A DNA stretch of 50,614 bases from Pseudomonadota bacterium. Lineage in GTDB: Bacteria > Pseudomonadota > Gammaproteobacteria > Pseudomonadales > Moraxellaceae. The position numbers and the translations under genes were made by a program. The stretch covers positions 1-50,614 of the forward strand of contig JAJZHP010000003.1 in assembly GCA_021804355.1 (NCBI GenBank), in the 5' to 3' direction. This document shows, in pieces, positions 18,596-43,775 of the stretch. The notes under the pieces are model-generated. The model was not told where the DNA came from, did not search any database, and saw only the letters and a program-made list of their open reading frames with translations. Each line of letters begins with the position of its first letter. Position 1 is the first letter of the stretch.

Positions 18596-18596
18596 T

Positions 18597-20705: not shown

Positions 20706-22185
20706 GCTGCACCGTGGGTGAACTGTCCTCGCTCGGTCGGGCTCCACCCAGAGCTCTGATCAGGTGAACCTCGGCGCGTAACCGGGCGACATTGACGCGC
20801 GCAAGCTCCTGTTCACGTTGAATTCGGGCGATGCTGCTCAGTTGTTGCTCGGCTTCATCCATCAGTCCGGAGTGGTAGCCTTTTTGAGTGAGTACTTCAT
20901 CCTGCTGTGCCAGGGCATAGGCTGTTGCCGCGGCCTGATACTCATCATCCAGTCCATGCAGGGTAAGCAATTGTTCGCTGACTTCCTGCATGGCTTGTAG
21001 CAGTTGTTGGTTATAGTTGGCGATATCAGCATCGCGCTGGGCAGCGGCGATATTCAGGGCTCCCTGCAAGTGTCCTCCTTCAAAAATGGGCAAGGACAGC
21101 GCCGGCGTGATGCCATACATCAAGGCATTGTTTGAAAACAGTTGAGCAAAGCCGAGCGCCTGATAGCCTGCAAAGGCATTCAGATTGATGTCGGGGTAGA
21201 AGCGAGCTTTGGCGACTTTGATGGTTTGTGTGTCAGCTTCCACCCTCCAGTGCGCAGCTATAATGTCTGGGCGTCTAGCCAGCCAGCGCAAAGGAATTTG
21301 GGTAGGTGGATGTAATGACCGGGTGAGTGAAACGGTGGGAGGCTGCAGGTGAAAATCTGCCGAGGGAGGCCTGCCGCACAGCAAGGCAAGCTGGGTGATG
21401 AGCAGCTGACGATGTGTCTGCTGGCGTGCCAGTTGGGTCTGAACCTGAGTGCGTAACCCCATGACTTTATTGACGTCAAGGTCGGTACCCAGTCCCGCTT
21501 TGCGGCGCATTTGTGCCAAGGCGAGCAGTCGGTTCTGCCCATGTAATATGGTTTCAGTTCGTTCTGACAGGGCTTCTTCCAAGGCTAGCTGCAGATAAGT
21601 GTCAATCAAGTCACTGATCAGAACCTGTTCAACTTGCGCTGATTCAGCCTGGGTAGCATGCAGTTGATCCAGCGCCGCAGACAGGGAGGCATGATGCTTG
21701 CCCCAAAGATCAAGCTCGAACCGGCTTTCAAGCAAGGTTTGATTATCCCAATAGGTGTGAGCACCAAAAGGAGGGGGGATGAATTCATCAGCGGTAAAGC
21801 GTTCATAAGTGGGGCTAACGTTAGCTGAGACTGAAGGTTTCAGCGCCGAATGCTGGATTTCGGCTAACGCAGCGGCTGCTTGAACTCGGGCTTTGGCCTC
21901 ATCTAATGAGGGAGCCTGTTGTAAGGCTTGGTCCATCAGTTGGTCAAGCTGGTGGTCTTGCCATTGCTGCCACCAGTGCAGCCCTGGCCATTCCTTGATA
22001 AGGCTTGCTTGATGGGCATCATCAGGGATCACGTGATGGCTTAGAGATTCTTCAAGGGATTTGACCCGAGAGGGAGGGGTCTGCGGAAGCGTGCAGCCCG
22101 TCAGGATATACGCAAAGAGCCCCCATCCGAGGCTGAGCCGGAAAGTTTGGACTCTTAACTTGAACCACAGGCTAAAATCATTCAT
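20698..22185 (-). CDS. Outer-membrane efflux lipoprotein (NodT/OprM-type OMF)
   Basis: A 495-residue TolC-like channel. The N-terminal signal ends in the lipobox ILTG-C31, so the protein is a lipoprotein. Two OEP repeats follow, with signatures such as LESRFELDLWGKH and WLARRPDIIAAHWRVEAD. It should form the outer-membrane duct for the FUSC-HlyD pump downstream. The ATG at 22185 is the only start that puts the signal peptide at the N-terminus; an open frame continues upstream to 22320 but adds an unsuitable polar leader. No ribosome binding site is seen and the promoter lies so close that the message may be leaderless. Confidence 0.9.
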   Translation of the reverse strand: MNDFSLWFKLRVQTFRLSLGWGLFAYILTGCTLPQTPPSRVKSLEESLSHHVIPDDAHQASLIKEWPGLHWWQQWQDHQLDQLMDQALQQAPSLDEAKARVQAAAALAEIQHSALKPSVSANVSPTYERFTADEFIPPPFGAHTYWDNQTLLESRFELDLWGKHHASLSAALDQLHATQAESAQVEQVLISDLIDTYLQLALEEALSERTETILHGQNRLLALAQMRRKAGLGTDLDVNKVMGLRTQVQTQLARQQTHRQLLITQLALLCGRPPSADFHLQPPTVSLTRSLHPPTQIPLRWLARRPDIIAAHWRVEADTQTIKVAKARFYPDINLNAFAGYQALGFAQLFSNNALMYGITPALSLPIFEGGHLQGALNIAAAQRDADIANYNQQLLQAMQEVSEQLLTLHGLDDEYQAAATAYALAQQDEVLTQKGYHSGLMDEAEQQLSSIARIQREQELARVNVARLRAEVHLIRALGGARPSEDSSPTVQHE

Positions 22186-22191
22186 TTGTGT

Positions 22192-22220
22192 ATTATAAGC
22201 ACGCTTCTTACATTTGCCAA
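22192..22220 (-). promoter_or_regulatory. Strong promoter of the efflux operon, six bases from the start codon
   Basis: On the minus strand TTGGCA (22220-22215), a 17-base spacer and TATAAT (22197-22192) form a near-consensus sigma-70 promoter. Only ACACAA separates the -10 from the ATG at 22185, so transcription would begin at or within a base or two of the start codon. No repressor-like inverted repeat was picked out nearby and no regulator gene is adjacent. Confidence 0.65.
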
Positions 22221-22390
22221 GTTTAAGTGGGCAAAGAGTGGGTCTTTGCGTTGGAGTGAGGATTACTTTTTGGTGTAAAGATAACTCATGGGCTGTCATC
22301 TGTTTTTTTGGGGCAGCCACAAGGCTACACGCCGGCGAAATTTTAGATGTAGTGATTCCGTCGTGCAGTCAGCTTTGCCTGATCTGAGGA

Positions 22391-22855: not shown

Positions 22856-23671
22856 ATGATCGTACAGGGAACGATAAGCAAATTAAGAGCAGAGGTCAAA
22901 GCACCTTTGGCCTATGTGATGCCTGTGGGTGCAACCCAGGTGCCCTTACAGCCCGGCCAGCATCTACGGTTGCGTGCTATGGGCAGTATACGCTGTCTGC
23001 ATTGTCAGCGCGCGACGCGCAAGAGCTATAACCAGGGCTATTGTTATGTTTGCTTTACCAAACTCGCTGCTTGCGATATGTGCATCATGCGTCCAGAGCA
23101 ATGTCATTTTGCAGCGGGCACCTGCCGGGAGCCGGTTTGGGGTGAACAGCATTGTATGGTTCCGCATGTGGTTTATCTGGCCAATTCATCGGGAGTTAAG
23201 GTAGGTATTACACGGCAGACCCAGGTGCCCGTACGATGGATAGACCAAGGGGCAAGTGCCGCCCTGCCGTTGTTTCAGGTGGGTTCCCGCCTGCATTCAG
23301 GTTTGATCGAAGTGGCCTTGGCTCAGCATGTGGCAGACAAGACACAATGGCAGGCTATGTTGCGTGGACAACCTGAGCCAGTGGACTTGGTTGGTCGTGC
23401 TGAGCAGCTGATGCAACTCTGTGCCCGAGAACTTGCTGATCTGGAGAGTCGCTTTCCTGGCGACAGGGTGAACCTGGTGCCTCAGGTCCAGCATTTTGAG
23501 TACCCGGTATTGCGCTACCCCACCAAAGTCAAGGCACTAAGCCTGGATACCCAGCCTGAGATTGAGGGGCTGCTGGAAGGTATCAAGGGGCAGTATTTGC
23601 TTCTGGATACCGGGGTATTTAATGTGCGAAAGCATACATCTTATGACATTGAAATGGAGGTTGGAGCGTGA
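22856..23671 (+). CDS. DUF2797 zinc-ribbon protein
   Basis: A 271-residue protein. A cysteine cluster RCLHCQRATRKSYNQGYC, YVC and ACDMC (about 42-72) looks like a treble-clef or double zinc ribbon. The following part (VVYLANSSGVKVGITRQTQV, about 103-122) resembles the GIY-YIG-like core described for DUF2797: YLA plus VKVGITR. Function is not established. The ATG at 22856 is chosen because longer starts run into the divergent gene. The stop overlaps the pepN start (GTGA), so it is co-translated with pepN, an arrangement I recall from pseudomonads. Confidence 0.82.
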   Translation: MIVQGTISKLRAEVKAPLAYVMPVGATQVPLQPGQHLRLRAMGSIRCLHCQRATRKSYNQGYCYVCFTKLAACDMCIMRPEQCHFAAGTCREPVWGEQHCMVPHVVYLANSSGVKVGITRQTQVPVRWIDQGASAALPLFQVGSRLHSGLIEVALAQHVADKTQWQAMLRGQPEPVDLVGRAEQLMQLCARELADLESRFPGDRVNLVPQVQHFEYPVLRYPTKVKALSLDTQPEIEGLLEGIKGQYLLLDTGVFNVRKHTSYDIEMEVGA

Positions 23672-26226
23672 GCGTTGAACATGCCTTGAAAGATTATCAA
23701 GCCTTAGCCTGGCGGATAGAAACGGTTGAACTGGAGTTGGACATAGGTGATGACAGCACCCTGGTATCTTCCAGGATGCTGGTACAGCGCCTCAATCCGC
23801 AAGCTCGATCGCTTTGTCTGGATGGCGAGGGACTGATGACGTTGTATGTTGGCATGGATGGGCGTGAACTGCGCAGCGATGAATACAATCTGACCCCGAC
23901 CCTGCTGGAGATTCCCTGTGATGCCGATCAGGTGGTGATCAGCACGCGTGTGCGCATCCATCCAGCCACAAATACCTCGCTGGAAGGATTTTATGCTTCA
24001 GGTCCTTTGCTGTGTACGCAATGTGAACCTGAAGGTTTTCGTCATATAACCTGGTTCATCGATCGCCCGGATAACCTGTCACGCTTTACCACCACCCTGA
24101 TCGCTGATGCTACCCGTTACCCGGTTCTCCTGGCTAATGGAGATCGTGTTAGTCATGCTGATGTCGGGGATGGGCGTCACAGGGCAAGTTTTGTTGATCC
24201 CACCCTTAAGCCCTGTTATCTGTTTGCTGCCGTCGCGGGAGACCTTGCTGTCCTTAAAGATCAGATAGTGACGGCGGAGGGCAGGAGCGTTGCTCTCGAA
24301 ATTTATGCCGATGAGCGTGATATTCCGCAGTGTCATCACGCTATGGCGTCCCTCAAGGCGGCCATGCGTTGGGATGAGGTGCACTATGGTCGTCACTATG
24401 ACTTAAATACCTATGTGATCGTGGCGGTGAGTTATTTCAACATGGGAGCCATGGAAAACAAGGGGTTGAATATCTTTAATACGTCCTGTGTGCTGGCCGA
24501 TGCAAACTTGAGCACGGATGCTGGTTTTTCACGGGTCGAGTCGGTTATAGCGCATGAGTATTTTCATAATTGGAGCGGTAATCGTGTGACTTGCCGTGAC
24601 TGGTTTCAGTTATGTCTCAAAGAGGGCTTAACAGTTTATCGTGATCAGCAGTTTTCGGCAGATCAGGGGTCACAGGATGTACAACGTATCGATGATCTGG
24701 TGCGTCTGAAGACCTATCAGTTTGCTGAAGATGCAGGCCCTCGATCGCATCCGGTGCGTCCAGCTGTTTACCGTGAGATCAATAATTTTTATACCGCCAC
24801 GGTCTATGAAAAGGGGGCGGAAATTGTACGCATGTTGCATCGGGTCCTGGGGGATGCCGATTACCGTCGTGGTATGGATCTCTATTTCTCCAGGCATGAT
24901 GGGGAGGCGGTCACGGTAGAGGATTTTTTACAGGCCTTGGGTGATGCCTCGGGTCAGGATCTGACCCCCTTTATGGATTGGTACACACAGGCAGGCACGC
25001 CGCGTATTGAAGTACTTGAGTCTTGGGATCAGCAACAGAAGGTCTATACCCTGACCTTGCGTCAGGTGGGTAAGGTGTTGCCTGTTCCCTTTCGGTTAGG
25101 TTTCCTTGATGCATCAGGAGAGCCTCTGAGCTGGCAGTCTTCAGCTTTGCTCAGGGATGATCTGTTATTGCTGACCGAGGCGACCACGACAGTGGTTGTA
25201 GCCTCGGGGACGCATCGGCCAGTACCGGTTTTATTGCGTGGATTTTCAGCCCCGGTGATAGTTGAACGGGCTATGTCTGATGAAGAGCTGGCGCTTATTG
25301 TGGAACACGATAGCGATGGCGTTAGCCGCTGGCAGGCGCTACAGACCATGCTGGTCAATGCCCTGCGCCGTCAACTGGCAGGAGAGCAGGTGCCCGGAGT
25401 ACGGCTGGTGCAAGTATGTGCTGGAGTTCTTGCGAAAGCTGATCAGGATCCTGCCCTGGCTGCTCGCATGTTAAGTTTGCCTGCCTTAGCGACGATCACG
25501 GCCGGCATGACCTGTGTAGATCCGCAGCATGTCCATCGCGCCCGGGAGTCATTTTGCCGCGCACTGGGACGAGCTCTGGATTGGTCCGCCTGGGTTGCCC
25601 GCGGGTCATCTCACCATGCAGGGGAGCGAGCCTTGGTTGACCTGGCTCTGACGTATGTCACGGCTGCACAGGGCACGGCAGTGAGCGCGATGTTATTGTC
25701 GCGTTACGAGACAGCGCAAAATATGACCTCTCGTCAGTCCTGTACTTTGCCATTGCTGACCCTGGGTGGGGTGGCTGCTGCCCAAGTCCTGGCGGACTGG
25801 CGAGAGCGTTTTGCCGTGCATCCGTTAGTGATCGATCGCTGGTTCAGCATGCAGGCAGGTCACCCGCATGGGGAGGTTCAAGCGGTTGCCAAGCTTTTGC
25901 AGCATCCAGATTTTAACTGGACCTCGCCTAATCGTGTGCGAGCTGTCTTATCGGCTTTTGCGCAGAACAACATGAATTTTCATGATCGTCAGGGACAGGG
26001 GTATCAGGTACTGGCTGCTGCCATCGCGCGGCTTGATAAGATTAATCCGCAATTGGCAGCACGCTTAATGACGGGTTGGGATGGGGTAACTTCCTGGCCT
26101 GCCGAGTTGAAAGATCGGGTGCATGATGCTCTGGTTACCTGGCTAGGCGGCGAGGTTTCTGCTGACCTGGAGGAGATGCGTCGTCAAGTTATGACGGCTA
26201 TTCATGGAAGTAGGTCATGCGCCTAG
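23668..26226 (+). CDS. pepN: Aminopeptidase N
   Basis: Zinc M1 aminopeptidase for cytosolic peptide turnover; 852 residues, close to E. coli PepN (870). The substrate-binding GAMEN motif is at 260-264, zinc site HEYFH at 296-300 with the third ligand E319 in LKEGLTVYRDQQF. The all-helical C-terminal domain is complete. It starts with GTG at 23668, preceded by GGAGG, and overlaps the DUF2797 stop by four bases. No signal peptide. Confidence 0.96.
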   Translation: MSVEHALKDYQALAWRIETVELELDIGDDSTLVSSRMLVQRLNPQARSLCLDGEGLMTLYVGMDGRELRSDEYNLTPTLLEIPCDADQVVISTRVRIHPATNTSLEGFYASGPLLCTQCEPEGFRHITWFIDRPDNLSRFTTTLIADATRYPVLLANGDRVSHADVGDGRHRASFVDPTLKPCYLFAAVAGDLAVLKDQIVTAEGRSVALEIYADERDIPQCHHAMASLKAAMRWDEVHYGRHYDLNTYVIVAVSYFNMGAMENKGLNIFNTSCVLADANLSTDAGFSRVESVIAHEYFHNWSGNRVTCRDWFQLCLKEGLTVYRDQQFSADQGSQDVQRIDDLVRLKTYQFAEDAGPRSHPVRPAVYREINNFYTATVYEKGAEIVRMLHRVLGDADYRRGMDLYFSRHDGEAVTVEDFLQALGDASGQDLTPFMDWYTQAGTPRIEVLESWDQQQKVYTLTLRQVGKVLPVPFRLGFLDASGEPLSWQSSALLRDDLLLLTEATTTVVVASGTHRPVPVLLRGFSAPVIVERAMSDEELALIVEHDSDGVSRWQALQTMLVNALRRQLAGEQVPGVRLVQVCAGVLAKADQDPALAARMLSLPALATITAGMTCVDPQHVHRARESFCRALGRALDWSAWVARGSSHHAGERALVDLALTYVTAAQGTAVSAMLLSRYETAQNMTSRQSCTLPLLTLGGVAAAQVLADWRERFAVHPLVIDRWFSMQAGHPHGEVQAVAKLLQHPDFNWTSPNRVRAVLSAFAQNNMNFHDRQGQGYQVLAAAIARLDKINPQLAARLMTGWDGVTSWPAELKDRVHDALVTWLGGEVSADLEEMRRQVMTAIHGSRSCA

Positions 26227-26377
26227 TTCCATGATGTCTTCATGAAGGTTTTCGCAGCGGCCTTAATGCCCAGGACATCAGCAACAAAAAATCGCAAAAG
26301 AGGGTCAAGAGTGCCTCGTTACCGAATGCTACGACTGCATGGATGCAGGAGGTAGGGCAACACATGGAGCAGTTGCC

Positions 26378-26431
26378 GAGAACCTTGGCGTGTTTGTTAC
26401 GCACTCGAACATTTAGGGTCTTGGTTGCCAA
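26378..26431 (-). pseudogene. tnpB: TnpB N-terminal remnant
   Basis: The minus-strand frame opens MATKTLNVRVRNKHAKVL, which matches the standard start of TnpB proteins of the kind that begin MATKTLKVRVKDKHA. After this the frame continues with Cys-rich sequence unlike TnpB, so only about 18 codons survive. It is unrelated in position to the C-terminal TnpB piece at the left edge of the window. Confidence 0.65.
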
Positions 26432-26498
26432 CGTATCAATCCTCTTGATACTGTTATTATAGGCAGCTTAAAACAAGCAGTCAACAGCATGCTTACAT

Positions 26499-26518
26499 CC
26501 TCGCCATGAATGGCGGGG
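26499..26518 (+). terminator. Hairpin typical of IS200/IS605 ends; also a possible pepN terminator
   Basis: CCTCGCCAT pairs with ATGGCGGGG (one T-G pair) around GA, and TTTT follows directly. The motif acatcctc-hairpin-ggggtttt is the kind of subterminal stem-loop found at ends of IS200/IS605-group elements that carry tnpB. As it lies 270 bases after pepN on the same strand it could also act as an intrinsic terminator. Both readings fit the sequence. Confidence 0.5.
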
Positions 26519-26538
26519 TTTTACGCACAAACTGATAA
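26509..26538 (+). repeat. 30-bp dispersed repeat (copy 1)
   Basis: AATGGCGG, then GGTTTTACGCACAAACTGAT and AA, matches the complement of 49423-49452 at 29 of 30 positions. It includes the 3' arm of the IS200/IS605-like hairpin. The repeat supports a mobile origin for both neighbourhoods. Confidence 0.7.
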
Positions 26539-26719
26539 GTTGTGCTTAAGCACTGAATTGCTGCAAAAATGCACAGTCAACTTGCAAAATGCCAGCTTCA
26601 AGCTTTAATTACTGGGGAGATTATGTATAAATGGCGGCAGTCACCGTTTTGTCATGGGAGTGGCAACGGAAAGACACGGGATTGTCGGGTAAAATAATAA
26701 GCTACTGGGAGCGTTTGGT

Positions 26720-28936
26720 ATGAGTTCACCTTTTTTCATGCGCAGCAAGCAAAGGGTTCGCAGGAATCGCTGGCTGCTTACCCTGGTATTGCCAGGGCTG
26801 AGTGTGCCGGTCTGGGCGGTGAACTTTAATCTTGGGCCTGATCTGCAAGTCCAGGCTGATACCTCGTTGTCTTATGGGACAGGATGGTTGACTCATACGC
26901 CTCCTGATGTGTTGACTGAAATGCCCATCACAGGGCTGAACAAGGTTGATGGTCATGCCAATTTCGATCCTGGTGTGCCCTTTACCCAAGCCTATATGAT
27001 TCAGGAAAATCTATCTTTTAATTATCATGACAAATACGGCGCTCAGTTCAGTGGGCTGGCGTTTTATGATGCTACGTTGATGGGTGGTAAGCCGGTAGGT
27101 AATGATCCTTATCCTGCAGCGGCGGGGTGTAACCCCCAGGTCACGCCGGCAGCGCAATTGCAGTCTTGTGGTTTTGCCCAGGCAACCCGGGAGTTTGATG
27201 GTCGCCGTATTCGTGGTTATGACGCCTACGTCTGGGGTAACTTTACGCCGGATGAAAAACCTCTGAACGTACGTTTGGGTTATCAAGTGGTCAACTGGGG
27301 TGAAGCGCTCTATATTCAAGGTGGATTGAATGCAGCCAACCCGGTGTCGCTGGCGCAGCTGGATGTTCCGGGCTCTGAGATCAAGGATGCTCTGCTACCC
27401 TTGCCCATGGCTTATTTCAACTTAGGGTTAAGTGATGCTGTTTCCATGGAAGGTTTTGCCGAATTTGGCTGGCACTTCTCGGAAGCTCCGGGTATGGGTA
27501 CGTTCTACTCCACCAATAATTCTTTCGGTGGTTATGGAGCAGAACGTGTTCTGGTCGATATGTCGACCGCTTCAAGTCTGTTGCCTGGTCAGGTGCAAAA
27601 GCCCGGACAAAACGTCCCCGGTACCCTGTTGAATCAATCACAGATGAATCAGTTGGTGCAGGCTTACAACAGCCAGCTTTATGGCAACGGCTCTACCATG
27701 CTGACCAACTCCTGGAATGGTGATGTGCCCTCATCCATCCATGGCCAGTTTGGTTTGGCCTTGCGTTTTCAGCCAGGTGACAGCGGCAGTGAGTATGCCT
27801 TGTATGCCATGAATTATACCGATCATCTGCCCGTAGCTCAGTTCACCGTGGGACAGGCCTACGGTGCAAGCCTGAATCCCAATGTGGCGCAGGTGGCTAC
27901 CAATATGCTGGCGGCTACCACGGGGTCTTTGGGACTGGCCAGTGCCATTACGGGAGCCGTCTCCAAGTCGGGAGTAACCGGTTTGAATGGTATTGCCAAC
28001 ACGGCATCTGCTGTGGCTGGCGGCGCGGGTCTGGGTTTAAGTTCTGCGCAGATTAATACCATCGGACAGCAGACTGCTGGCCTGTATAACGGCCTGAATA
28101 CGATTAATGCGATCAATAGCACAACGTATAATCTGGTCTATCCTGCCAATCGACATTTGTTTGGTACCAGCTTTTCTACTACCGTCAGTAATTTCTCGCT
28201 CGCTGGGGAAGTATCCTATCGCCCCAATAAGATTGTATTGCGTGAGTTAGGTGACAATCTGGTGGCTGAGAACTCAGCCTGGGCCCCCGTGATCGGTAAC
28301 GGTGGGCAAGCCAGTTTGGCAGGATCCATGGCAGGTCAGCCTCCGGTCTCGGCGGGCCAGACTATTCAGGACTGGGCTCAGGTGGAAGAATATACGGCTG
28401 ACTTGTCAGCGGTACTTAATCTGAATAATGCCCTGCGTTCTGATGGCATGACGGCTATCGTGGAAGTAGGTGCTGTACACTATGCCAACTACAATCGCAA
28501 CCAGATATATGCCTCCACCAAGTCGTTGCTGAATACGTCACTGCCTAATTCCATTATATTCAATAATGGCCAGCCCAGTGCCGCAGCCTGTTCGCCGGGC
28601 AATGCCAGTTGTATAGCGGCTGTAGAAGGGCCGTTAGGTGATTATATGACACCGACTTCCTGGGGTTATCGCCTAGCCCTGAAGGCTACCTACGATGAAG
28701 TATTTACCAATATCAATATGGTGCCCCAGTTATTATTTGGTCAGGATGTGCAGGGTAACTCGGATTATACGGGAGCTTTTATGCAAGGTCGCCGTACGGC
28801 CATGCTGGGTTTGAATACGATCTATAACCAGTCGGTTGAACTGGACTTGGCTTACAACATCTATTGGGGAGGAGGTCCGGCTAATCTGATGGCAGATATG
28901 GATAACCTGACTTTGGCTTTGAAATATACCTTCTGA
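26720..28936 (+). CDS. DUF1302 outer-membrane protein
   Basis: A 738-residue exported protein. An unusually basic n-region (RSKQRVRRNR) precedes the hydrophobic signal; cleavage is likely after VWA at residue 33. The mature part has alternating, aromatic-rich beta strands and ends in LALKYTF, with the terminal Phe expected of an outer-membrane beta-barrel. A long Ala/Gly/Ser-rich, Asn-rich insert (about 395-475) probably forms a loop or plug. DUF1302 proteins occur with DUF1329 and MMPL genes, as here. Role unknown; a channel or receptor for hydrophobic compounds is an inference. First gene of a four-gene module. Confidence 0.88.
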   Translation: MSSPFFMRSKQRVRRNRWLLTLVLPGLSVPVWAVNFNLGPDLQVQADTSLSYGTGWLTHTPPDVLTEMPITGLNKVDGHANFDPGVPFTQAYMIQENLSFNYHDKYGAQFSGLAFYDATLMGGKPVGNDPYPAAAGCNPQVTPAAQLQSCGFAQATREFDGRRIRGYDAYVWGNFTPDEKPLNVRLGYQVVNWGEALYIQGGLNAANPVSLAQLDVPGSEIKDALLPLPMAYFNLGLSDAVSMEGFAEFGWHFSEAPGMGTFYSTNNSFGGYGAERVLVDMSTASSLLPGQVQKPGQNVPGTLLNQSQMNQLVQAYNSQLYGNGSTMLTNSWNGDVPSSIHGQFGLALRFQPGDSGSEYALYAMNYTDHLPVAQFTVGQAYGASLNPNVAQVATNMLAATTGSLGLASAITGAVSKSGVTGLNGIANTASAVAGGAGLGLSSAQINTIGQQTAGLYNGLNTINAINSTTYNLVYPANRHLFGTSFSTTVSNFSLAGEVSYRPNKIVLRELGDNLVAENSAWAPVIGNGGQASLAGSMAGQPPVSAGQTIQDWAQVEEYTADLSAVLNLNNALRSDGMTAIVEVGAVHYANYNRNQIYASTKSLLNTSLPNSIIFNNGQPSAAACSPGNASCIAAVEGPLGDYMTPTSWGYRLALKATYDEVFTNINMVPQLLFGQDVQGNSDYTGAFMQGRRTAMLGLNTIYNQSVELDLAYNIYWGGGPANLMADMDNLTLALKYTF

Positions 28937-28953
28937 TCTTCATGAAATATGTG

Positions 28954-28986
28954 GTAGATGCAGGCAAAATTCCTGACTGCATCTAC
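28954..28986 (+). other. Intercistronic stem-loop between DUF1302 and DUF1329 genes
   Basis: GTAGATGCAG (28954-28963) pairs perfectly with CTGCATCTAC (28977-28986) around a 13-base loop. No T-run follows, so it is more likely an mRNA-processing or stability element than a terminator. It would allow different amounts of the barrel and the downstream proteins. Confidence 0.6.
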
Positions 28987-29021
28987 ACTTCTTGCTGACT
29001 GTCCGTTCGAGGAAGATAACT

Positions 29022-30413
29022 ATGCTTAAACGACTTATGTCATGGGGTGCGGTTTTTTCGCTAACCCTGAGCCTGTCGGCAGTTGCCGGGGTGTCCCCCG
29101 GTGAGGCCAGCAAGTTGGGCGTGTCCCTGACCCCCTTGGGAGGAGAAATCTCAGGTAATGGGAAGAGTGGGTGGGATGGCATCCCTGCTTGGACGGGTGG
29201 ATTGACCGAAGCTCAGGCACCCAAGAACTACCGTCCTCCTGAGCATCATCCGGATCCCTTCGCCAATGAAAAGCCTTTGCTGATCATTAATTCAGCTAAT
29301 ATGGCTAAGTACGCCAATTACTTGGGTGAAGGCGTGCAAGCCATGCTCAAGCAATATCCGCAGAATTTTTATCTGCAGATCTATCCTTCGCACCGCACTC
29401 TGGCGGTGCCGCAGCGTGTTGCTGATAATACCAAACGCTGTGCGCTTACAGCCCAATTACGTGGCTGGGCTATGGATAATTGTGTGGGAGGTACTCCGTT
29501 CCCTATTCTTACAGGCAGTAATTCAGATCAGGCTCTGGAAGCGCTCTGGAACCATCTCACCCGCTTTCGCGGTGTTTACGTAATTCGCCGTGCTTCAGAA
29601 GTGGCCGTGCAGCAGAATGGTTCTTACTCGCTGACCAGTAATGATCAGGAGCTTTACTTCAAGTACTACGATCCCAAGATCAAGTCCTTGGCTGATCTGC
29701 ATAATATCCTGTTCTATTTTCTTTCGGTTCAGCTAGCTCCAGCCCGTTTGGCGGGGGGCGCCGTGCTGGTATGGGAAACCTTGGATCAACGTAAGGACGA
29801 ACGTAAAGCCTGGGGCTATAACGCTGGTCAACGTCGTGTACGCCAGGCCCCCAACCTTTCCTACGATACACCGATTGCCGATGCTGATGGGCTGCGTACC
29901 GCTGATGACACAGATATGTTCAACGGTGCCCCGGATCGCTATCAGTGGAAGTTCTTGGGTAAAAAGGAGATGTTGATTCCTTACAACGATTACGCCTTGA
30001 GCAGCCCCAAGATCAAATATCGTGAGTTATTGACACCTGATGTCATGAATCCACGCTATGAACGTTGGGAAATGCACCGTGTCATCGTCGTCGAAGGCAC
30101 TTTGCGGCCTGGAAAACGTCATATTTATTCCAAGCGTCGCTTCTATATCGACGAAGACAGCTGGCAAATTGTTGAAGCTGATCAGTATGACAGCCGTGGT
30201 GAGCTCTGGCGCGTAAGCCTCGCTTTCCCGAAAGAGTACTGGGAAGTTCCGATGATGTGGGCAACGGCTGACTCTTATTATGATTTGCAGGCACATCGCT
30301 ATCATGTGATGGGGCTGACCAATGAAGAATCGATGGAGTTTGATGCTACCAAGCCTACGCCCGGTGATGAGTACTTCACGCCGGCAGCCTTGCGTCGCCG
30401 CGGTACACGCTGA
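29022..30413 (+). CDS. DUF1329 periplasmic protein
   Basis: A 463-residue secreted protein. The signal peptide MLKRLMSWGAVFSLTLSLSA ends with AVAG near residue 23, and the mature start GVSPGEASKLGVSLTPLGGE is typical of DUF1329. Other family blocks are GWDGIPAWTGGL, YEKWEMHRV-like YERWEMHRVIVVEGTL, and KRRFYIDEDSWQIVEADQYD. The last resembles the strand-rich fold of LolA/LolB-like lipid or lipoprotein carriers, so a hydrophobic-ligand carrier is a fair hypothesis. The ATG at 29022 follows GAGGA; an in-frame start 30 bases upstream is rejected. Two hairpins separate it from the next gene. Confidence 0.9.
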   Translation: MLKRLMSWGAVFSLTLSLSAVAGVSPGEASKLGVSLTPLGGEISGNGKSGWDGIPAWTGGLTEAQAPKNYRPPEHHPDPFANEKPLLIINSANMAKYANYLGEGVQAMLKQYPQNFYLQIYPSHRTLAVPQRVADNTKRCALTAQLRGWAMDNCVGGTPFPILTGSNSDQALEALWNHLTRFRGVYVIRRASEVAVQQNGSYSLTSNDQELYFKYYDPKIKSLADLHNILFYFLSVQLAPARLAGGAVLVWETLDQRKDERKAWGYNAGQRRVRQAPNLSYDTPIADADGLRTADDTDMFNGAPDRYQWKFLGKKEMLIPYNDYALSSPKIKYRELLTPDVMNPRYERWEMHRVIVVEGTLRPGKRHIYSKRRFYIDEDSWQIVEADQYDSRGELWRVSLAFPKEYWEVPMMWATADSYYDLQAHRYHVMGLTNEESMEFDATKPTPGDEYFTPAALRRRGTR

Positions 30414-30419
30414 AAGTCT

Positions 30420-30447
30420 GGCTGCTTCCCTGAGGGGGGAGGCAGCC
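30420..30447 (+). other. GC-rich stem-loop after DUF1329 gene
   Basis: GGCTGC (30420-30425) pairs with GCAGCC (30442-30447), with further inner TCCC/GGGA pairing. It starts 6 bases after the stop codon. No T-run follows, so readthrough into the propeller gene is likely. Confidence 0.5.
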
Positions 30448-30461
30448 GCAGTATTCTCAAG

Positions 30462-30479
30462 CTCCGGCCTTGACCGGAG
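30462..30479 (+). other. Second stem-loop upstream of propeller gene
   Basis: CTCCGG (30462-30467) pairs with CCGGAG (30474-30479) around CCTTGA. It lies 24 bases before the ATG of the YCF48-like gene, close enough to influence its translation or to protect a processed 5' end. Confidence 0.45.
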
Positions 30480-30503
30480 TGCACAGCATAAGGCGGTTTT
30501 ATC

Positions 30504-31481
30504 ATGCTGAAACATCTTGTTTTGGGATTATGGGTGGGCACCACCTCCTGGATGGCTATGGCGGATACTGATCTTTCGCCGGCTCACTTGCCTGCCATCA
30601 TGACATCCAGAGCTGATCAGGCCTTGCTGCTGTCCGTGGCTAAGGCGGGGCAGCGCTTGGTAGCGGTAGGTGCGCATGGCGTTATTTTGCTCTCGGATGA
30701 TCAAGGGCGGCATTGGCAGCAGGTGCATACGCCCACTTCGGTCATGCTGACCAGTGTGGCCTTTGCTGATGAACAACATGGCTGGGCGGTAGGTCATGAA
30801 GGGGTCATTGTGGCTACCTCTGATGGTGGTCATAGTTGGGCTTTACAGCATGTGGCTGAAGGTTCGGATGTTCATAAAGGGACACCTTTATTATCCGTGG
30901 TCACGATCAATGCGCAGACTGCGGTGGCGGTGGGCGCTTATGGTTTTGTTTTACGCACCGACGATGGTGGCAAGACCTGGGTCAATATGGACAGCTCCTT
31001 GCCGAATCCTGATAACTTGCACCTCAATGCCATTACGATGTCATCCACCAACCCGCAATCCTTGTTTGTGGCTGGTGAAAAGGGACAGATATTCCATTCC
31101 GCCGATGCCGGTAAAACCTGGACAAAGTTAAATTCCCCAACCGATGCTTCCTTGTTTGGGGTGAGTGATCCGGTCAACGGACAGTTATATGTCTTTGGCT
31201 TGGGTGGTGGTCTGTTTCGTTCTACGGATGAGGGTGTGAGCTGGACCAGTATCAGTACGGGGTTGTCATCGGGTATCAATGCTCTGGTGGGCACCGGCAA
31301 CAATGAAGTGGTAGCTGTCGGTAATGGTGGTCAAGTCTTGATCAGTTATGACGCCGGTTTGCATTTTGAAGTACATCCCCAGGCTGATCGGCTTAAGTTG
31401 GTTGATGTGCTAGCTATGCATCAGGGGCAATTCCTCGCCGTAGGCGAGGGTGGTGCTCATCTTTTAAATCTAGGTCATTGA
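30504..31481 (+). CDS. YCF48/BNR-type beta-propeller protein
   Basis: A 325-residue exported protein with signal peptide 1-20 (ending AMA-D). It carries repeated propeller blades with the BNR-like motif S/T-x-D-x-G-x-x-W: SDDQGRHWQQV, TSDGGHSWALQ, TDDGGKTWVNM, SADAGKTWTKL and STDEGVSWTSI. Each is followed by an AVG-x-x-G strand. The closest named relatives are HCF136/YCF48-like proteins, assembly factors of photosystem II in plants and cyanobacteria. Here it is not photosynthetic; it sits between a DUF1329 gene and an MMPL transporter, so it probably assists assembly or substrate handling of that envelope system (inference). Confidence 0.9.
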   Translation: MLKHLVLGLWVGTTSWMAMADTDLSPAHLPAIMTSRADQALLLSVAKAGQRLVAVGAHGVILLSDDQGRHWQQVHTPTSVMLTSVAFADEQHGWAVGHEGVIVATSDGGHSWALQHVAEGSDVHKGTPLLSVVTINAQTAVAVGAYGFVLRTDDGGKTWVNMDSSLPNPDNLHLNAITMSSTNPQSLFVAGEKGQIFHSADAGKTWTKLNSPTDASLFGVSDPVNGQLYVFGLGGGLFRSTDEGVSWTSISTGLSSGINALVGTGNNEVVAVGNGGQVLISYDAGLHFEVHPQADRLKLVDVLAMHQGQFLAVGEGGAHLLNLGH

Positions 31482-31495
31482 TGCGAGGGTCCGAC

Positions 31496-33814
31496 ATGAA
31501 AAATCCGTCCATTCTGGAACGTTGGGTCTTTGCTGCACGCGGGCTGGTGATTACCGTATTCGCGTTATTGACCTTGGCTATGATTTTTGGGGTATCGCAG
31601 CTTAAACTTGATACCGGCTTGACCCGCATGGTTCCCCAAGGTCATGAGTATATTAAGAACCTGCTGGCCTATCAGGATGAGTTAGGGCTGGGGAATGATG
31701 TCCATATCGTGTTCGCTCTGAAAAAGGGTGGAAATCAGGACATCTTCAACGCTGATTACATGCAGAACCTCAAGCGGCTGAATGATCAGGTTGCTGAATT
31801 GCCTGGTGTGGACAAGTCTAAGCTCAAGTCGCTGTGGACGCCTAATGTGCGTTGGCTTGATGTCACCAAAGATGGTTTTGTCGGGGGAGAAGTCATTCCG
31901 GAAACCTACAATGGTGATGCTAATAGTCTTAGTCAGTTAAGGACTAATGTCCTGCGTTCCGGTCAGGTGGGAACCTTGGTGGCTGACGATTTTCGTTCCA
32001 GCATGATCGATGCGCCTTTGATTGAAGGCCAGTTTAACTATCAGGATCTTTCTGCCCAGCTCAATGCACTGAGCAGGCAGTATGGTCAGGGTGCTTATGA
32101 AGTTCATATCAATGGGTTTGCGAAAAAAGTTGGTGATTTGATTGCAGGTGGAAGCAAGATTGTTGTTTTCTTTCTCGCCGCCATGCTGCTGACTTTCTTG
32201 CTGCTATTGTGGGATTTTGGCGATCTGATCAGTGCTTTGACGGTGGTTTTCTGTTCGCTGATTGCCGTTATCTGGCAACAAGGCATTATGGGCTTGCTGG
32301 GGGTGGCTGGCATACATGGTTTTGGTATGGACCCTTATTCCATGCTGGTGCCCTTTCTGGTCTTTGCCATCGCGGTCAGCCATAGCGTACAAGTGGTCAA
32401 TATGGTGGCTGTGCAGTATCAGGAAGGAGACACCCAGCCTGAAGCGGCGGCTCGTCATGCCTTCTCTTCGCTGATCAAAGCAGGCTTTATCGGACTGGCC
32501 ATGGAAGCGCTGGGATTTCTGACCCTGTTGATGATACATATTCAGGTGATCCAGAGCATGGCTATCAGTGCCAGTATCGGGGTTGCCCTGATTCTGCTCA
32601 CCAACTTTATCCTGCTGCCTGTGCTGATGTCTTATTTTCGAATCAGCCAGCGCGCTATCGCCCGTGCACGTCATAAAGCGACGACGCGAGGCATTTGGGC
32701 CTTGATGGTGCATATGACGCGGCGCCCTCAAGCCATCGTGGCTATCCTGTTGGCCATGCTGATGCTGGGTGGTTCGATCTGGGTGGCTCGTGGGCTTAAA
32801 ATTGGTGATCTCGATCGAGGCGCTCCTGAACTCAAGGCAGATTCACGCTACAATCGTGATGATCGCTATATTACCGATCATTACTCCATTTCGGCGGATG
32901 TGCTGGTGGTGCTCGTAAAAACCCCGGCTCAGATGTGTGGTAGTTTTGCTACGCTGGAAACGATAGATCAGTTGCAGTGGTATCTGGATAACGTTCCTGG
33001 TGTGCAGTCTGCCAAATCCCTGGTGACGGGTACGAAGCGGGTGCTGGTGGGCTATAACGAAAGTAGTCCTAAATGGTCAACGATCGTCGATGATGATCGC
33101 GTCCTCAACGATGCTACGAGTCGATTGACGGATCTTTACTCTGCCAACTGTGATCTGGTGCCTGTGTTTGTTTTCCTCAATGATCACAAGGCCGAGACGT
33201 TGACACGCGTTACCGATGCGGTCAAGGCTTTCCGAAGTGCTCATCCTAATCCTAATGTACAGCTGCTTTTGGCCTCGGGTAATGCTGGAATTGAGGCGGC
33301 GACTAATGACGTGATCTCAGCCTCTAAAGACCCTATGCTTTTGCTGGTCTATGCCGTGGTTATCGTGATCAGCCTGTTGGCATTCAGAAGCTGGAGACCT
33401 GTGGTCTGCATTGTGGCTCCGCTGGTCGTAACGTCATTTCTATGCGAAGCGCTGATGACGGAACTGGGTATTGGGGTTAAGGTGGCTACGTTGCCGGTGA
33501 TTGCGCTGGGAGTAGGCATCGGTGTGGACTATGGTATCTATATATACGCTCGTCTGGAAAGTTACCTGAAACAGGGTTTGAATCTGGAAAAGGCTTATGA
33601 ACAGACTTTGGCTAGTACTGGTAGGGCGGTTAACTTTACAGGATTAACATTGGCAATCGGCGTTTGTACCTGGGTCTTGTCACCGATCAAGTTCCAGGCG
33701 GATATGGGCCTTTTGCTGACTTTCATGTTCCTCTGGAATATGTTGGGTGCGTTAATACTGTTGCCTGCCTTTGCTCACTTTTTGGTTAAAGTTAAAGTAG
33801 ACAAGGCGCCCTGA
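31496..33814 (+). CDS. MMPL/RND-family inner-membrane transporter
   Basis: A 772-residue protein with the two-fold RND layout: helix 1 (about 18-36), a periplasmic domain, helices 2-6 (about 215-385), then helix 7 (about 410-430), a second periplasmic domain and helices 8-12 (about 615-770). It is shorter than drug pumps of the AcrB type (about 1040) and matches MMPL/HAE3-like lipid or hydrophobe exporters. Characteristic text is VATLPVIALGVGIGVDYGIY in the second membrane block. ATG 31496 follows GAGGG by 8 bases and lies 14 bases after the propeller stop; the next gene starts 2 bases after its own stop. Confidence 0.9.
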   Translation: MKNPSILERWVFAARGLVITVFALLTLAMIFGVSQLKLDTGLTRMVPQGHEYIKNLLAYQDELGLGNDVHIVFALKKGGNQDIFNADYMQNLKRLNDQVAELPGVDKSKLKSLWTPNVRWLDVTKDGFVGGEVIPETYNGDANSLSQLRTNVLRSGQVGTLVADDFRSSMIDAPLIEGQFNYQDLSAQLNALSRQYGQGAYEVHINGFAKKVGDLIAGGSKIVVFFLAAMLLTFLLLLWDFGDLISALTVVFCSLIAVIWQQGIMGLLGVAGIHGFGMDPYSMLVPFLVFAIAVSHSVQVVNMVAVQYQEGDTQPEAAARHAFSSLIKAGFIGLAMEALGFLTLLMIHIQVIQSMAISASIGVALILLTNFILLPVLMSYFRISQRAIARARHKATTRGIWALMVHMTRRPQAIVAILLAMLMLGGSIWVARGLKIGDLDRGAPELKADSRYNRDDRYITDHYSISADVLVVLVKTPAQMCGSFATLETIDQLQWYLDNVPGVQSAKSLVTGTKRVLVGYNESSPKWSTIVDDDRVLNDATSRLTDLYSANCDLVPVFVFLNDHKAETLTRVTDAVKAFRSAHPNPNVQLLLASGNAGIEAATNDVISASKDPMLLLVYAVVIVISLLAFRSWRPVVCIVAPLVVTSFLCEALMTELGIGVKVATLPVIALGVGIGVDYGIYIYARLESYLKQGLNLEKAYEQTLASTGRAVNFTGLTLAIGVCTWVLSPIKFQADMGLLLTFMFLWNMLGALILLPAFAHFLVKVKVDKAP

Positions 33815-33816
33815 GT

Positions 33817-36800
33817 ATGCCGGATGACTGGTCGGGTTATGAAGCGGCTTTGAGATCGGCCTGTCGCCAGCTCTATGGTGAACAGGCTGATATCCATCGT
33901 TTTGATCTGTTCGTCCGCCAGGTTTTTCATGGTTTGCTTGATCAGGAGCTGCAGCGATTCAATGCCTTGAATCTGGCTCCTGAACTGGTTGAGCTTTGGC
34001 ATTTTGTGCATACTTCCGGGCGACACTCGTTGGAGCTCCAGGTTCGTTCTGCTATCCAGAGCTCAACGCTTCGTACCACCTGCATTGATGTGTTGGGAGA
34101 AGAAACTCCTTTCTTGCTGAATACCTTACGCATGCATCTTATCCGTCGAGGACATCGACCCCTGCTGGTTATCGATCAGTCGCTGGCGCATGCAGGTAGT
34201 TCCCGTTACCGGGTAGCCTTACAAATCCATATTCCAGAAATTTCTGACGAAGCCTGCAAGTTACTGCAACAACAACTTGAAGGGGCCATGTTTATCCTTG
34301 GCAAGGTGGTGCAGGATTTTGGTTTGATGCGTGAAACCCTGGCGCGGGAATCGATGCAATCTTTGCGTTTTGTAGAGCGCGACCAAAGCAAGGAAGAGAA
34401 TCTCGAGTTTTACGCTTTTATCAGCTGGATACTTCAGGAAAACATGTTGCTGCTGGGTATGAAATCCTGGGATATTCATGACGGTCAACGTGTACTGCGC
34501 CCTGATTCTGAACTCGGTTGGCTAGCCATAGAACCCTGTGTCGATTGTTTGCAGGAGCATGATCTATTTGCTCGACCCGGCTATGGACGTGTGGCTTTTG
34601 CACAGATCCCTGTGCGCTCTCCGGTTAATCATGATGAGTTTTGTGATCTGGTTGCTCTGCGACGTCGGGATGAACAGGGGCAGGTGGTTGCAGAACTCAG
34701 GTTGGTGGGGCTTTATACCTCGCGTATGAATCAGTCGGATCCTGCCAATATTCCCGTCATGCGAGAAAAATTGGCGACCTTAAGAAATCTCTGTGGATTT
34801 CACCCCTTGAGCGCTGACGCCCGTAACTTAGAACGGCTACTGCGGTTCCTGCCACGCAATCGGTTACTGATGGCAACAGCCTCTGATCTGGCACCTTCGC
34901 TGATGAGTATGGTGGCACAACGGCAGCCGCGGCGTTGTAAGTTTATCTGGTGGTCAGACCGCTATGATCGGTTTGTTTATCTGACCTTGTTCATCCCCAA
35001 AACTTGGTTTCGTGATGAACTTCCTCAACAGTTTCTGGACTGTCTTAAGCAGACTTTAGATTGTCGTGATACGCGTCATGATGTCCTCGTGTCAGCTTAC
35101 TTGTGGGTACGTGTTGATTATCGGCTGGTCATAGCCTCGGCTACTGATGATGAACAACGTCGGGTGATGGAAGAACGACTGGATGCTCTCTGTATTAGCT
35201 GGGATCAGCGTGTGCGGTGCGAGCTTGAAAAGCTGCAGGTGATCATACCGGAAGGCCAGCCTGTGATCACGGGACTAGCCCCTGAATATCAGCAATTGCA
35301 TGCTCCTGAGGAGGCGGCTGAAGATCTGAAGATGGTGTTAACTCTGCCTCAGGATTCTTCATGGGGTTTACATCTGCGTCAGCTGGATACCACGGCCAGA
35401 CGCCTCAAGGTGGTGATCCTGCATCGTGGCGAGCCTTTATGGTTATCCGATGTACTACCGGTCGTGGAGAGTCTGGGACTGCGCGTCATGGACGAACGCA
35501 GCTATGAGTTGTCCCTACCTGCAGGTAAGGGTTCCCTGCATGAACTTCAGGTCTCCTGGTCTGAAGAGGGAGAGATTGCGCAATACGAGCAGTTACATGG
35601 CGTGATGCTGGCCTGCTTACAGGGCAGGGCACCTGTGGATGGTTTTAATCGGCTGGCTCTGGTGGCTGGATTAGGTGCCGATCAAATTCAAGTCTTTCGA
35701 GCCTATGCCTATTATCAACAGCAATTAGGCTGGGCGCCTGGGCCGTCTTCTGTAGCCGATTTGCTGGTACAGCACCCTGATGCTGTGCTGGGGCTCTGGC
35801 AAAGATTTGCTGCTCGTTGGCAGGAAACCACAGATGAGCAGACGGATGACCTGGAAGGAGGGTGGAATCGCTATCTGACTACCGTCAGTTCGCGCAGCGC
35901 AGATATCGTGCTGCGGCGTTATGCTGCCTTGATCGATGCCACGGTACGCTGTAATTATGGGCGCGATCATCAGGGTGTTCTGGCATTTAAGCTGGAGCCT
36001 AGGCGTATTGCTGGAGTTCCACGGCCTTGTCCGCTCCATGAAATTTATGTCTATGCACATGAATACTCAGGCGTGCATCTGCGTTTTGGCGCTATAGCCC
36101 GCGGCGGGATACGATGGTCCGACCGACAGGATGATTTTCGTACAGAGATCCTGGGTCTGGTCAAGGCGCAGCAGGTCAAAAATGCTGTCATCGTGCCGGT
36201 AGGCGCCAAGGGTGGATTCGTCTTGCATGATCCCCAGCGTCGCCTGACGGTCAATAGCGAGGCATGGCGTGCTGCGGGTGTGGCCGCTTATGAGTCTTTC
36301 ATGGCTGCTTTGCTGGCGTTGACGGACAATCAGCATGAGGGTCAGGTGGTCCCCGTGCCCGGTTTGCGTCGTCATGATGGCGATGACAGCTACTTGGTCG
36401 TGGCCGCTGATAAAGGCACTGCCACCTTTTCAGATCGTGCTAACCGTATCAGTGAGGCCCATGGGTTCTGGTTGGGTGATGCTTTTGCCTCAGGCGGCCA
36501 GCATGGCTATGACCATAAAGTGATGGGGATTACGGCACGCGGCGCTTACTTGTCTTTGCAGCGACATCTTTGGACCTTGGGTCGTCAGGACGAGGCTTTC
36601 TCCTGTGTTGGCATCGGTGATATGTCGGGCGATGTTTTTGGAAACGGCATGCTGTTAGCACCCCAGATGCGACTTCTGGCAGCCTTTAATCATGCTCACA
36701 TCTTTATCGATCCTGATCCTGGGGTGGAGCGTGCCTATGCAGAAAGGCAACGCCTGTTTGCGCTACCCAGGTCGGGGTGGAGTGATTATGACGCGGCCTG

Positions 36801-38403
36801 TTTGTCTACGGGAGGCGCCATTTATGCTCGTAGTGAGAAGATGATCGAAGTCAGTCCTCAAGCTCGTGCTGCGCTCGATCTCCCTGCGGGGCCACTCAGT
36901 CCTGATGCGCTTATTCAGGGGCTATTGCGTGCACCGGTGGATGTGATCTGGAATGGAGGTATCGGTACTTACATCAAGTCCACGCAGGAAAGTCATGCGG
37001 ATGCTGGCGATCATGGCAATGATGCCTTGCGTGTCAACGGTGCAGAATTACGTGCCCGCATCGTGTGTGAAGGTGGCAATCTGGGGATGACACAGCGTGG
37101 TCGTGTTGAGTTTGCTCTGGCGGGAGGCTTGTGCCATACCGATTTTATTGATAACTCTGCCGGTGTTGATTGTTCCGATCGCGAAGTGAATATCAAAATT
37201 GCCCTGCAAGCACTGGTACAGCGGGGTAGTTTATCTATAGATGCGCGCAATACGCTCCTGGCAAGTTTGCAAGATGGGGTAGCTCATAGAGTGCTGAGTG
37301 ATAATCGTCAGCAAGCCTTGCTGCTCAGCGTCGCCGTGGCACAGCAACCTGCGCGCCATAATGAATTTGCCGATTTTATTACCTTTCTGGAGCATGAGGC
37401 CGGGCTAGATCGAGAGCTGGAAGGTTTGCCTGATGCCAGGGCCTGGTCAGTGCGCATAGCGCGTGAGCAATGGCTGACCCGTCCGGAATTGGCCGTGCTG
37501 CTGGCCTATGCCAAGAATGATCTTAAAATGCGTTTGACGGCGCTGAATCTGGCTGATGATCTGTCCTGTCGGGATGATCTCCTGCGCGCATTTCCTCCCG
37601 CCTTGTGTGAGCAATATCATGATGTGCTGATGCAGCATCCTTTGCGCCATGCTTTGGTAGGTACGGAGCTGGCCAATGATTTTATACATAAGCTGGGTAT
37701 TACCAGCCTGCAAAGAATACAGCAGCGGGCCGGGGTAAGCCTGGCAGATCAGGTCAGGGCTTTCGTTCGTGTACGTGACGTCTTCGAGCTTGAAGCGCTC
37801 TGGGCTGAGTTAATGAGTGATCAGCGCTTGTCTCATGAAGCATTCGGGCGTATGGCTGATCAATCCATGCGTTATGCGCGTTTGGCTGTACTTTGGTGGA
37901 CGGGTGAGGCGGATCTGGCCCTGACGACGGCTGATCTTGATGCTGTTGCCGATGCCTGGTCCGAGACCGACGCCACTATAGCGCTGGAAACTTCAGAACA
38001 TCTTTTGAACCGATTTACCAGGCTGAGGCGGGGTGAGCAGCTGCTTGAAGTAGCTAGATTAGCCCGAAGTTCTCAACGTCCGGTTAAGGAGGTCGTGCAA
38101 GCCTATGCTGACATTGATGAGATGATAGGATTCTCCCGTTTGCTGCAACGTATGCATGAACGCACCGTGACTAACACTTGGCAAGCCCATGCCAATGAGG
38201 CCTATGTGGAGCAATGGCGTGACCTGCATAGGCAGTTATGTGGGCGTCGATTGTCGGGAATGATGGTGATGACCGACAGTGCACGGGTAGAGTGGCAGGG
38301 CCTATGTTCACGTTTGCAGATGGCTGATTATCAGGAAGCTGGGCTCTACGCTGTCCTTACTCAGAAACTTCATCGTCTGATGCATCTGCCAGGCAGCGCC
38401 TGA
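33817..38403 (+). CDS. gdhB: NAD-specific glutamate dehydrogenase, large (L_1500) type
   Basis: A 1528-residue cytosolic enzyme that oxidatively deaminates glutamate to 2-oxoglutarate with NAD. An N-terminal regulatory part of about 700 residues (ACT-like, including HSLELQVRSA and YAFISWILQENMLLLGM) precedes the catalytic core. The core contains AFKLEPRRIAG, GGIRWSDRQDDFRTEIL, KAQQVKNAVIVPVGAKGGFV and the dinucleotide fold around CVGIGDMSGDVFGNGML. It is a little shorter than P. aeruginosa GdhB (about 1620). It starts 2 bases after the MMPL gene, so it may be partly cotranscribed with it. Confidence 0.93.
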   Translation: MPDDWSGYEAALRSACRQLYGEQADIHRFDLFVRQVFHGLLDQELQRFNALNLAPELVELWHFVHTSGRHSLELQVRSAIQSSTLRTTCIDVLGEETPFLLNTLRMHLIRRGHRPLLVIDQSLAHAGSSRYRVALQIHIPEISDEACKLLQQQLEGAMFILGKVVQDFGLMRETLARESMQSLRFVERDQSKEENLEFYAFISWILQENMLLLGMKSWDIHDGQRVLRPDSELGWLAIEPCVDCLQEHDLFARPGYGRVAFAQIPVRSPVNHDEFCDLVALRRRDEQGQVVAELRLVGLYTSRMNQSDPANIPVMREKLATLRNLCGFHPLSADARNLERLLRFLPRNRLLMATASDLAPSLMSMVAQRQPRRCKFIWWSDRYDRFVYLTLFIPKTWFRDELPQQFLDCLKQTLDCRDTRHDVLVSAYLWVRVDYRLVIASATDDEQRRVMEERLDALCISWDQRVRCELEKLQVIIPEGQPVITGLAPEYQQLHAPEEAAEDLKMVLTLPQDSSWGLHLRQLDTTARRLKVVILHRGEPLWLSDVLPVVESLGLRVMDERSYELSLPAGKGSLHELQVSWSEEGEIAQYEQLHGVMLACLQGRAPVDGFNRLALVAGLGADQIQVFRAYAYYQQQLGWAPGPSSVADLLVQHPDAVLGLWQRFAARWQETTDEQTDDLEGGWNRYLTTVSSRSADIVLRRYAALIDATVRCNYGRDHQGVLAFKLEPRRIAGVPRPCPLHEIYVYAHEYSGVHLRFGAIARGGIRWSDRQDDFRTEILGLVKAQQVKNAVIVPVGAKGGFVLHDPQRRLTVNSEAWRAAGVAAYESFMAALLALTDNQHEGQVVPVPGLRRHDGDDSYLVVAADKGTATFSDRANRISEAHGFWLGDAFASGGQHGYDHKVMGITARGAYLSLQRHLWTLGRQDEAFSCVGIGDMSGDVFGNGMLLAPQMRLLAAFNHAHIFIDPDPGVERAYAERQRLFALPRSGWSDYDAACLSTGGAIYARSEKMIEVSPQARAALDLPAGPLSPDALIQGLLRAPVDVIWNGGIGTYIKSTQESHADAGDHGNDALRVNGAELRARIVCEGGNLGMTQRGRVEFALAGGLCHTDFIDNSAGVDCSDREVNIKIALQALVQRGSLSIDARNTLLASLQDGVAHRVLSDNRQQALLLSVAVAQQPARHNEFADFITFLEHEAGLDRELEGLPDARAWSVRIAREQWLTRPELAVLLAYAKNDLKMRLTALNLADDLSCRDDLLRAFPPALCEQYHDVLMQHPLRHALVGTELANDFIHKLGITSLQRIQQRAGVSLADQVRAFVRVRDVFELEALWAELMSDQRLSHEAFGRMADQSMRYARLAVLWWTGEADLALTTADLDAVADAWSETDATIALETSEHLLNRFTRLRRGEQLLEVARLARSSQRPVKEVVQAYADIDEMIGFSRLLQRMHERTVTNTWQAHANEAYVEQWRDLHRQLCGRRLSGMMVMTDSARVEWQGLCSRLQMADYQEAGLYAVLTQKLHRLMHLPGSA

Positions 38404-39483: not shown

Positions 39484-39606
39484 CCCCGGCGGGTGGACGA
39501 TATCTGCGTGTGCATGCCTAGAGTCTGGCAGCCTTGTGGAACTCATAAGCGAAAGCCGGCGACTTTATCGCCAGTTTTCAGGTTGGTCGATGCATTGAGA
39601 GTCTGC

Positions 39607-39873
39607 TTACGCGTAATGTGTCCACATGCGGAGGACACGAACTGTCTTCTCTTTGGGAAAAACTTCGTACACAATGCGGTGCTGAATATTGATACGGCGA
39701 GAGTATGCACCAGCAAGATCACCGACCAACTTTTCGAAGGGTGGTGGATTTTGAAAGGGGTCATTAGCAAGAACCGTGAGCAGTTCTTCGGCTTTTGCTT
39801 TCAGACCACTGGCAGCAAGTTTCTTAGCATCTTTTATGACTTGCTTGGCATAAACAATTTCCCAACTCACCAC
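39607..39873 (-). CDS. yoeB: YoeB/Txe-family mRNA interferase toxin
   Basis: An 88-residue ribosome-dependent RNase. The conserved residues match YoeB: E47 (FEKLVGDLAGAYSRRI), R66 (QHRIVYEV) and the C-terminal H86-Y87 (MWTHYA), equivalent to E46, R65, H83 and Y84 of E. coli. The start is one of two tandem GTG codons (39873 or 39870) that overlap the antitoxin stop, so translation is coupled. All active-site residues are present, so the toxin should be functional. Confidence 0.92.
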   Translation of the reverse strand: MVSWEIVYAKQVIKDAKKLAASGLKAKAEELLTVLANDPFQNPPPFEKLVGDLAGAYSRRINIQHRIVYEVFPKEKTVRVLRMWTHYA

Positions 39874-43772: not shown

Positions 43773-43775
43773 TCG

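Follow-up and report, generated by a model that had tools for sequence, protein, structure and literature searches.

Four adjacent genes on one strand of a Moraxellaceae genome raise the question of whether their products form one transport system across the cell envelope, and if so, which molecules it carries and in which direction. They lie in a 50,614-nucleotide stretch of DNA (contig JAJZHP010000003.1, assembly GCA_021804355.1), referred to here as the window. The first-pass annotation, made from the sequence alone, had proposed an undescribed trans-envelope system. The operon is in fact of the AmeABCD type, known since 2018, and the account below concerns its distribution, its probable mechanism and the alternatives to it.

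The four genes and their neighbourhood

The genes, denoted A to D, and their flanks are as follows.

23668–26226, + strand: pepN, conserved upstream neighbour (context, outside the machine); TIGR02414, E = 2e-296; synteny
26227–26719, + strand: intergenic region from pepN to the operon, 493 bp, candidate leader or promoter; weak promoter-like matches at 26425 and 26671
26720–28936, + strand: A, DUF1302 outer-membrane barrel (AmeA-type), 738 amino acids; PF06980, E = 3e-117, residues 17–738
29022–30413, + strand: B, DUF1329 periplasmic LolA-fold protein (AmeB-type), 463 amino acids; PF07044, E = 4e-143
30504–31481, + strand: C, YCF48/PSII-BNR beta-propeller (AmeC-type), 325 amino acids; PSII_BNR, E = 7e-25
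31496–33814, + strand: D, RND/HAE3-type MMPL pump (AmeD-type), 772 amino acids; PF03176, E = 1e-27
33817–38403, + strand: NAD-glutamate dehydrogenase (NAD-GDH), conserved downstream neighbour (context); PF05088, E = 1e-218; synteny in 25 loci
38449–39483, + strand: pyrD, conserved downstream neighbour (context); PF01180, E = 2e-87; synteny

Coordinates and profile matches confirmed the DUF1302, DUF1329, YCF48 and MMPL genes of the first-pass annotation, all on the + strand at 26720–33814, and the family assignment is strong for all four. The gaps measure ~85 bp between A and B, ~90 bp between B and C, and 14 bp from the stop codon of C to the ATG of D; NAD-GDH starts 2 bp past the end of D. 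B could start at 28992, with the ATG at 29022 preferred, and D at 31478, with the likely ATG at 31496 giving the 772 residues stated previously. Scanning the region before A for promoters and terminators gave counts no higher than in shuffled sequences, and no PsrA-like (fatty-acid regulator) sites were found upstream of A among 69 upstream regions.

The four products were also said to supply one part for each compartment, and the layout found here, with A in the outer membrane, B and C in the periplasm and D in the inner membrane, is supported by the barrel model of A, the LolA fold of B, the hydropathy of D and the N-terminal leaders, the last judged by eye rather than with a predictor. A has a hydrophobic N-terminal leader and ends in Phe, while the N-terminus of C is signal-peptide-like, with no lipobox Cys visible by eye. 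As previously reported, the pump has neither a HlyD-type adaptor nor a TolC-type channel (the HAE1 tripartite criterion) within 26720–33814. A separate, ordinary efflux cluster, in which genes for a HlyD-type adaptor and an outer-membrane efflux protein flank one for a FUSC pump, occupies 17520–22320 on the – strand of the window. Elsewhere in the window, consecutive recC, recB and recD-like genes lie at 40362–49213 on the + strand, and two open reading frames are free of any Pfam match (13004–14473, 489 amino acids; 39493–39969, 158 amino acids).

Structure models of A and B

The AF2 model of A (pLDDT 74.5) contains a barrel that aligns with OprD/Occ at Z 22 (VIA-align). Residues ~387–467 form a helical stretch between barrel strands, modelled with moderate confidence; it is mostly matched in homologues, and only residues 437–446 constitute an insertion, rare among homologues. 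The AF2 model of B (pLDDT 90.3) shows a LolA fold over residues ~163–461, with Z scores of 20.1 to P. gingivalis LolA3 (9tp6), 19.4 to the DUF1329 structure 4z48 and 8.8 to P. aeruginosa LolA, in agreement with the LolA/LolB-like features that had been noticed in the DUF1329 protein. Profile comparison of A and B with solved structures gave no significant sequence homologue, the likeness being one of fold only, and the resemblance of these models to known proteins does not prove function.

The family of B is PF07044 and not PF03548, and a match to LolA_like PF17131 is weak (E = 2e-7). The possibility that B is the organism's own LolA was rejected: the genome encodes a separate true LolA, so that B is a dedicated relative. 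The sole PF03548 match in the genome lies elsewhere (contig C165).

The propeller and the pump

C matches Ycf48 structures (E = 1e-18) and is clearly homologous to PRK13684 (YCF48/HCF136), with a score of 83 of 326 bits that is under the curated cut-off. The best family match of D is TIGR00921 HAE3 (E = 1e-46, 159 bits), which does not reach the curated NCBIfam cut-off of 351.9 bits, and the HAE3 label used here rests on the published AmeD assignment. D also matches MmpL pumps, and is far under the cut-offs for HpnN (74 of 752 bits for TIGR03480, 24 of 1100 bits for NF052374). Its hydropathy profile indicates ~12 transmembrane helices (TM) and two large periplasmic loops, near residues 35–221 and 432–611.

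In an alignment of D from the window with its relatives, Ser295-His296 in TM4 and Asp678-Tyr679 in TM10 are near-invariant. MmpL3 and HpnN carry their proton-relay Asp in TM4. Given Ser-His at this position, the proton relay of D may differ, and the textbook coupling route is not assured.

Co-occurrence and gene order

Strong profile matches were counted in a class survey of 321 genomes. A was found in 48, B in 54 and D in 51, with all three together in 45, and B was present in every genome with A and every genome with D. For each pair tested across the 321 genomes, Fisher's p was below 1e-43, a value that ignores phylogeny. The best B matches in a 34-genome sample had A just upstream in every case, and D downstream within 3.5 kb in 31. 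Among 80 named loci, all brought in via B, the order A-B-C-D is kept in 52, and 25 of these have the whole block pepN-ABCD-NAD-GDH-pyrD, identical to the window; Alteromonas, Shewanella, Pseudoalteromonas, Rheinheimera and Ferrimonas are among the loci with the conserved arrangement. By co-occurrence and order, the four-gene arrangement is far beyond chance. A lack of conserved co-occurrence in other genomes had been named in advance as what would refute a joint system; the survey found the reverse.

Distances in the trees of the four genes correlate at 0.59 to 0.94, which was not counted as evidence, because shared species history accounts for it equally well. In the tree of D, the window groups with pepN-linked copies from Pseudomonadales, and the next clade up also takes in five plasmid copies.

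Split and reshuffled arrangements

Where the operon is broken, the absent parts were found elsewhere in nearly all genomes checked. In eleven loci, chiefly from Marinobacter, Hahella and Saccharospirillaceae, A is missing and pepN-B-C-D is left; A was located elsewhere in seven of the eight such genomes that could be searched, with a second B beside it in the loci fetched. All nine Pseudomonas genomes picked for a locus with A-B alone have D elsewhere, in eight of them as C-D without A-B, adjoining pepN in four. The exception is P. nitroreducens, whose D locus is a complete pepN-ABCD, so its separate A-B is extra. The Pseudomonas split matches the P. putida layout of PP_0765/0766 and PP_2018/2019. 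The occurrence of B with only A at some loci and with only C-D at others fits a carrier common to an outer and an inner module.

A-B-C-D is also found on catabolic plasmids, in P. putida YC-AE1, Massilia WG5, Diaphorobacter and Cupriavidus N-1. Plasmid p1 of Cupriavidus pinatubonensis has all four genes in the order B-A-D-C, beside an arylsulfatase and a flavin oxidoreductase.

Published relatives of the operon

AmeABCD of Castellaniella defragrans was described in 2018 as an HAE3/RND exporter of apolar monoterpenes, whose deletion led to poorer growth on limonene and higher accumulation of Nile Red; its authors also remarked on the conserved gene order and on a new subfamily within HAE3 (PMC6394551). 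Studies of PAH, aromatic compounds, benzene and Tween 20 have come across the cassette as well. With this deletion phenotype in print, the description of the system as undescribed does not hold. Nor does the statement that the DUF1302–DUF1329 pair has no settled function: besides AmeABCD, comparative genomics found the four families regulated together within regulons for aromatic catabolism (PMC6449761), and in P. putida, PP_0765/PP_0766 and PP_2018/PP_2019 are all needed for growth on Tween 20 and were proposed, with AlphaFold contacts, to be a four-component transport system (PMC10866462). Contacts predicted by others in relatives are C-D, B-D and A-B. In the literature searched, Nile Red accumulation is the only direct transport assay found for any member.

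Proposed mechanism and alternative readings

We consider it probable that the operon is a chromosomal, vertically inherited transporter of the AmeABCD type for hydrophobic molecules. The proton-driven RND pump D would extract an apolar molecule, either out of the inner membrane or at its periplasmic face, with the propeller C docked on the pump and serving as adaptor or assembly factor. B would accept the molecule into the hydrophobic cleft of its LolA fold and cross the periplasm, and the barrel A would receive it at the outer membrane, placing it in the membrane or releasing it. We infer the handover from D to B to A, and that the substrates resemble alkanes or lipids. This best-supported reading of the mechanism resembles the scheme proposed for aryl polyenes, of an RND pump with LolA-like and LolB-like proteins (PMC8253772). 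The joint transport function put forward by the first-pass annotation is in this sense supported as a system, though not as a new one.

The genome encodes two AlkB alkane 1-monooxygenases (contigs C142 and C87; E = 1e-142 and 1e-146 to the solved AlkB 8f6t), from which the organism probably oxidises alkanes. Alkane-like molecules are therefore plausible as substrates or stressors.

If the four products do act jointly, the outward direction is modestly favoured, because established precedent makes RND pumps exporters and because the AmeABCD deletion mutant, with its raised Nile Red accumulation and lowered limonene tolerance, fits export. The same machine could run inward, with A admitting the hydrophobe, B ferrying it, and C-D energising or completing uptake at the inner membrane. 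Uptake keeps some weight because mutants of several relatives fail on hydrophobic substrates: their genes are required on Tween 20 (PMC10866462), a result that in P. putida fits both directions, and on limonene and other monoterpenes, and a need for growth on phenanthrene is reported second-hand. A Thalassolituus MMPL/LolA-type protein is increased 42-fold on n-C28, and the two AlkB in the present genome imply alkane use. The model of A is closest to OprD/Occ, which are uptake channels, but a barrel fold in common says nothing on direction. Set against the exporter precedent and the Nile Red phenotype, we regard the inward reading as rather unlikely.

A further reading concerns outer-membrane lipid homeostasis or vesiculation, in which an endogenous lipid is exported; the phenotypes on hydrocarbons would then follow indirectly from a weakened envelope. 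Delftia nanopods contain DUF1302 and DUF1329 proteins (PMC3110197, PMC3958437), disruption of the Delftia YCF48 gene phnL greatly lowers vesicle production (PMC3958437), and the window copy has a conserved set of housekeeping genes as its surroundings rather than a catabolic island. However, exogenous substrates are suggested by the many copies that belong to catabolic plasmids or regulons, and the C. defragrans mutants grow normally on acetate, leaving this explanation unlikely. That the four genes are mere neighbours, each with unrelated partners, is very improbable: A-B and C-D are unlinked in some genomes, but co-occurrence is near-perfect, the order recurs, a reshuffled plasmid retains all four, and the unlinked P. 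putida pairs give a shared Tween-20 fitness phenotype.

Returning to the AmeABCD-type transporter, we tentatively suggest, as an idea that is itself rather unlikely, that the pepN-linked form (Alteromonadales to Pseudomonadales) may serve housekeeping export of an endogenous lipid from inner to outer membrane, through an RND pump, a LolA-fold carrier and a His-based proton relay, and that the catabolic copies were recruited from it.

Comparison with known systems

There is only partial knowledge of how hydrocarbons and lipids move between Gram-negative membranes. Although this cassette occurs widely, the literature searched contains a single functional study devoted to it. The window adds a chromosomal copy, from a bacterium that probably oxidises alkanes, in a conserved location that many relatives share. 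With the operon unsplit at this site, the Tween-20 findings in P. putida and the terpene findings in C. defragrans can be taken to concern a single system. Two details are testable: B as a carrier common to two modules and, in D, Ser-His where a relay Asp would be expected.

AmeABCD shares with the window the four families, their order, one part per compartment, a pump assigned to HAE3 and an association with hydrophobic carbon sources; it lies in a monoterpene island, whereas the window copy occupies the chromosomal pepN-pyrD site. The P. putida set has the same four components but at two loci, while in the window they are unsplit, and in related Pseudomonas C-D adjoins pepN, as in the window.

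A benzene consortium expresses a related cluster, the ORM2a 'Nanopod' cluster (PMC13101534). This cluster and the phn-island/nanopod cassette of Delftia both include DUF1329 and YCF48, families of the window, and both are associated with growth on hydrocarbons; the further proteins reported are DUF1302 in Delftia and, in ORM2a, an MMPL pump together with a porin-like protein. Unlike the window copy, both clusters sit in hydrocarbon-degradation islands, and in that of ORM2a additional genes are present and DUF1329 is distant.

For aryl polyenes, transport by ApeM/ApeL/ApeN, comprising RND, LolA-like and LolB-like proteins, has been proposed in the work cited above. The Ape system resembles the window in its RND pump, LolA-like carrier and outer-membrane acceptor, with no HlyD or TolC, but its acceptor is a LolB-like lipoprotein and not a DUF1302 barrel, it has no YCF48 propeller, and it serves a dedicated endogenous product. 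The hopanoid transporter HpnN, like D, is an RND pump of the HAE3 group and moves lipids from the inner membrane; unlike the window, it lacks A, B and C partners (per PMC6394551).
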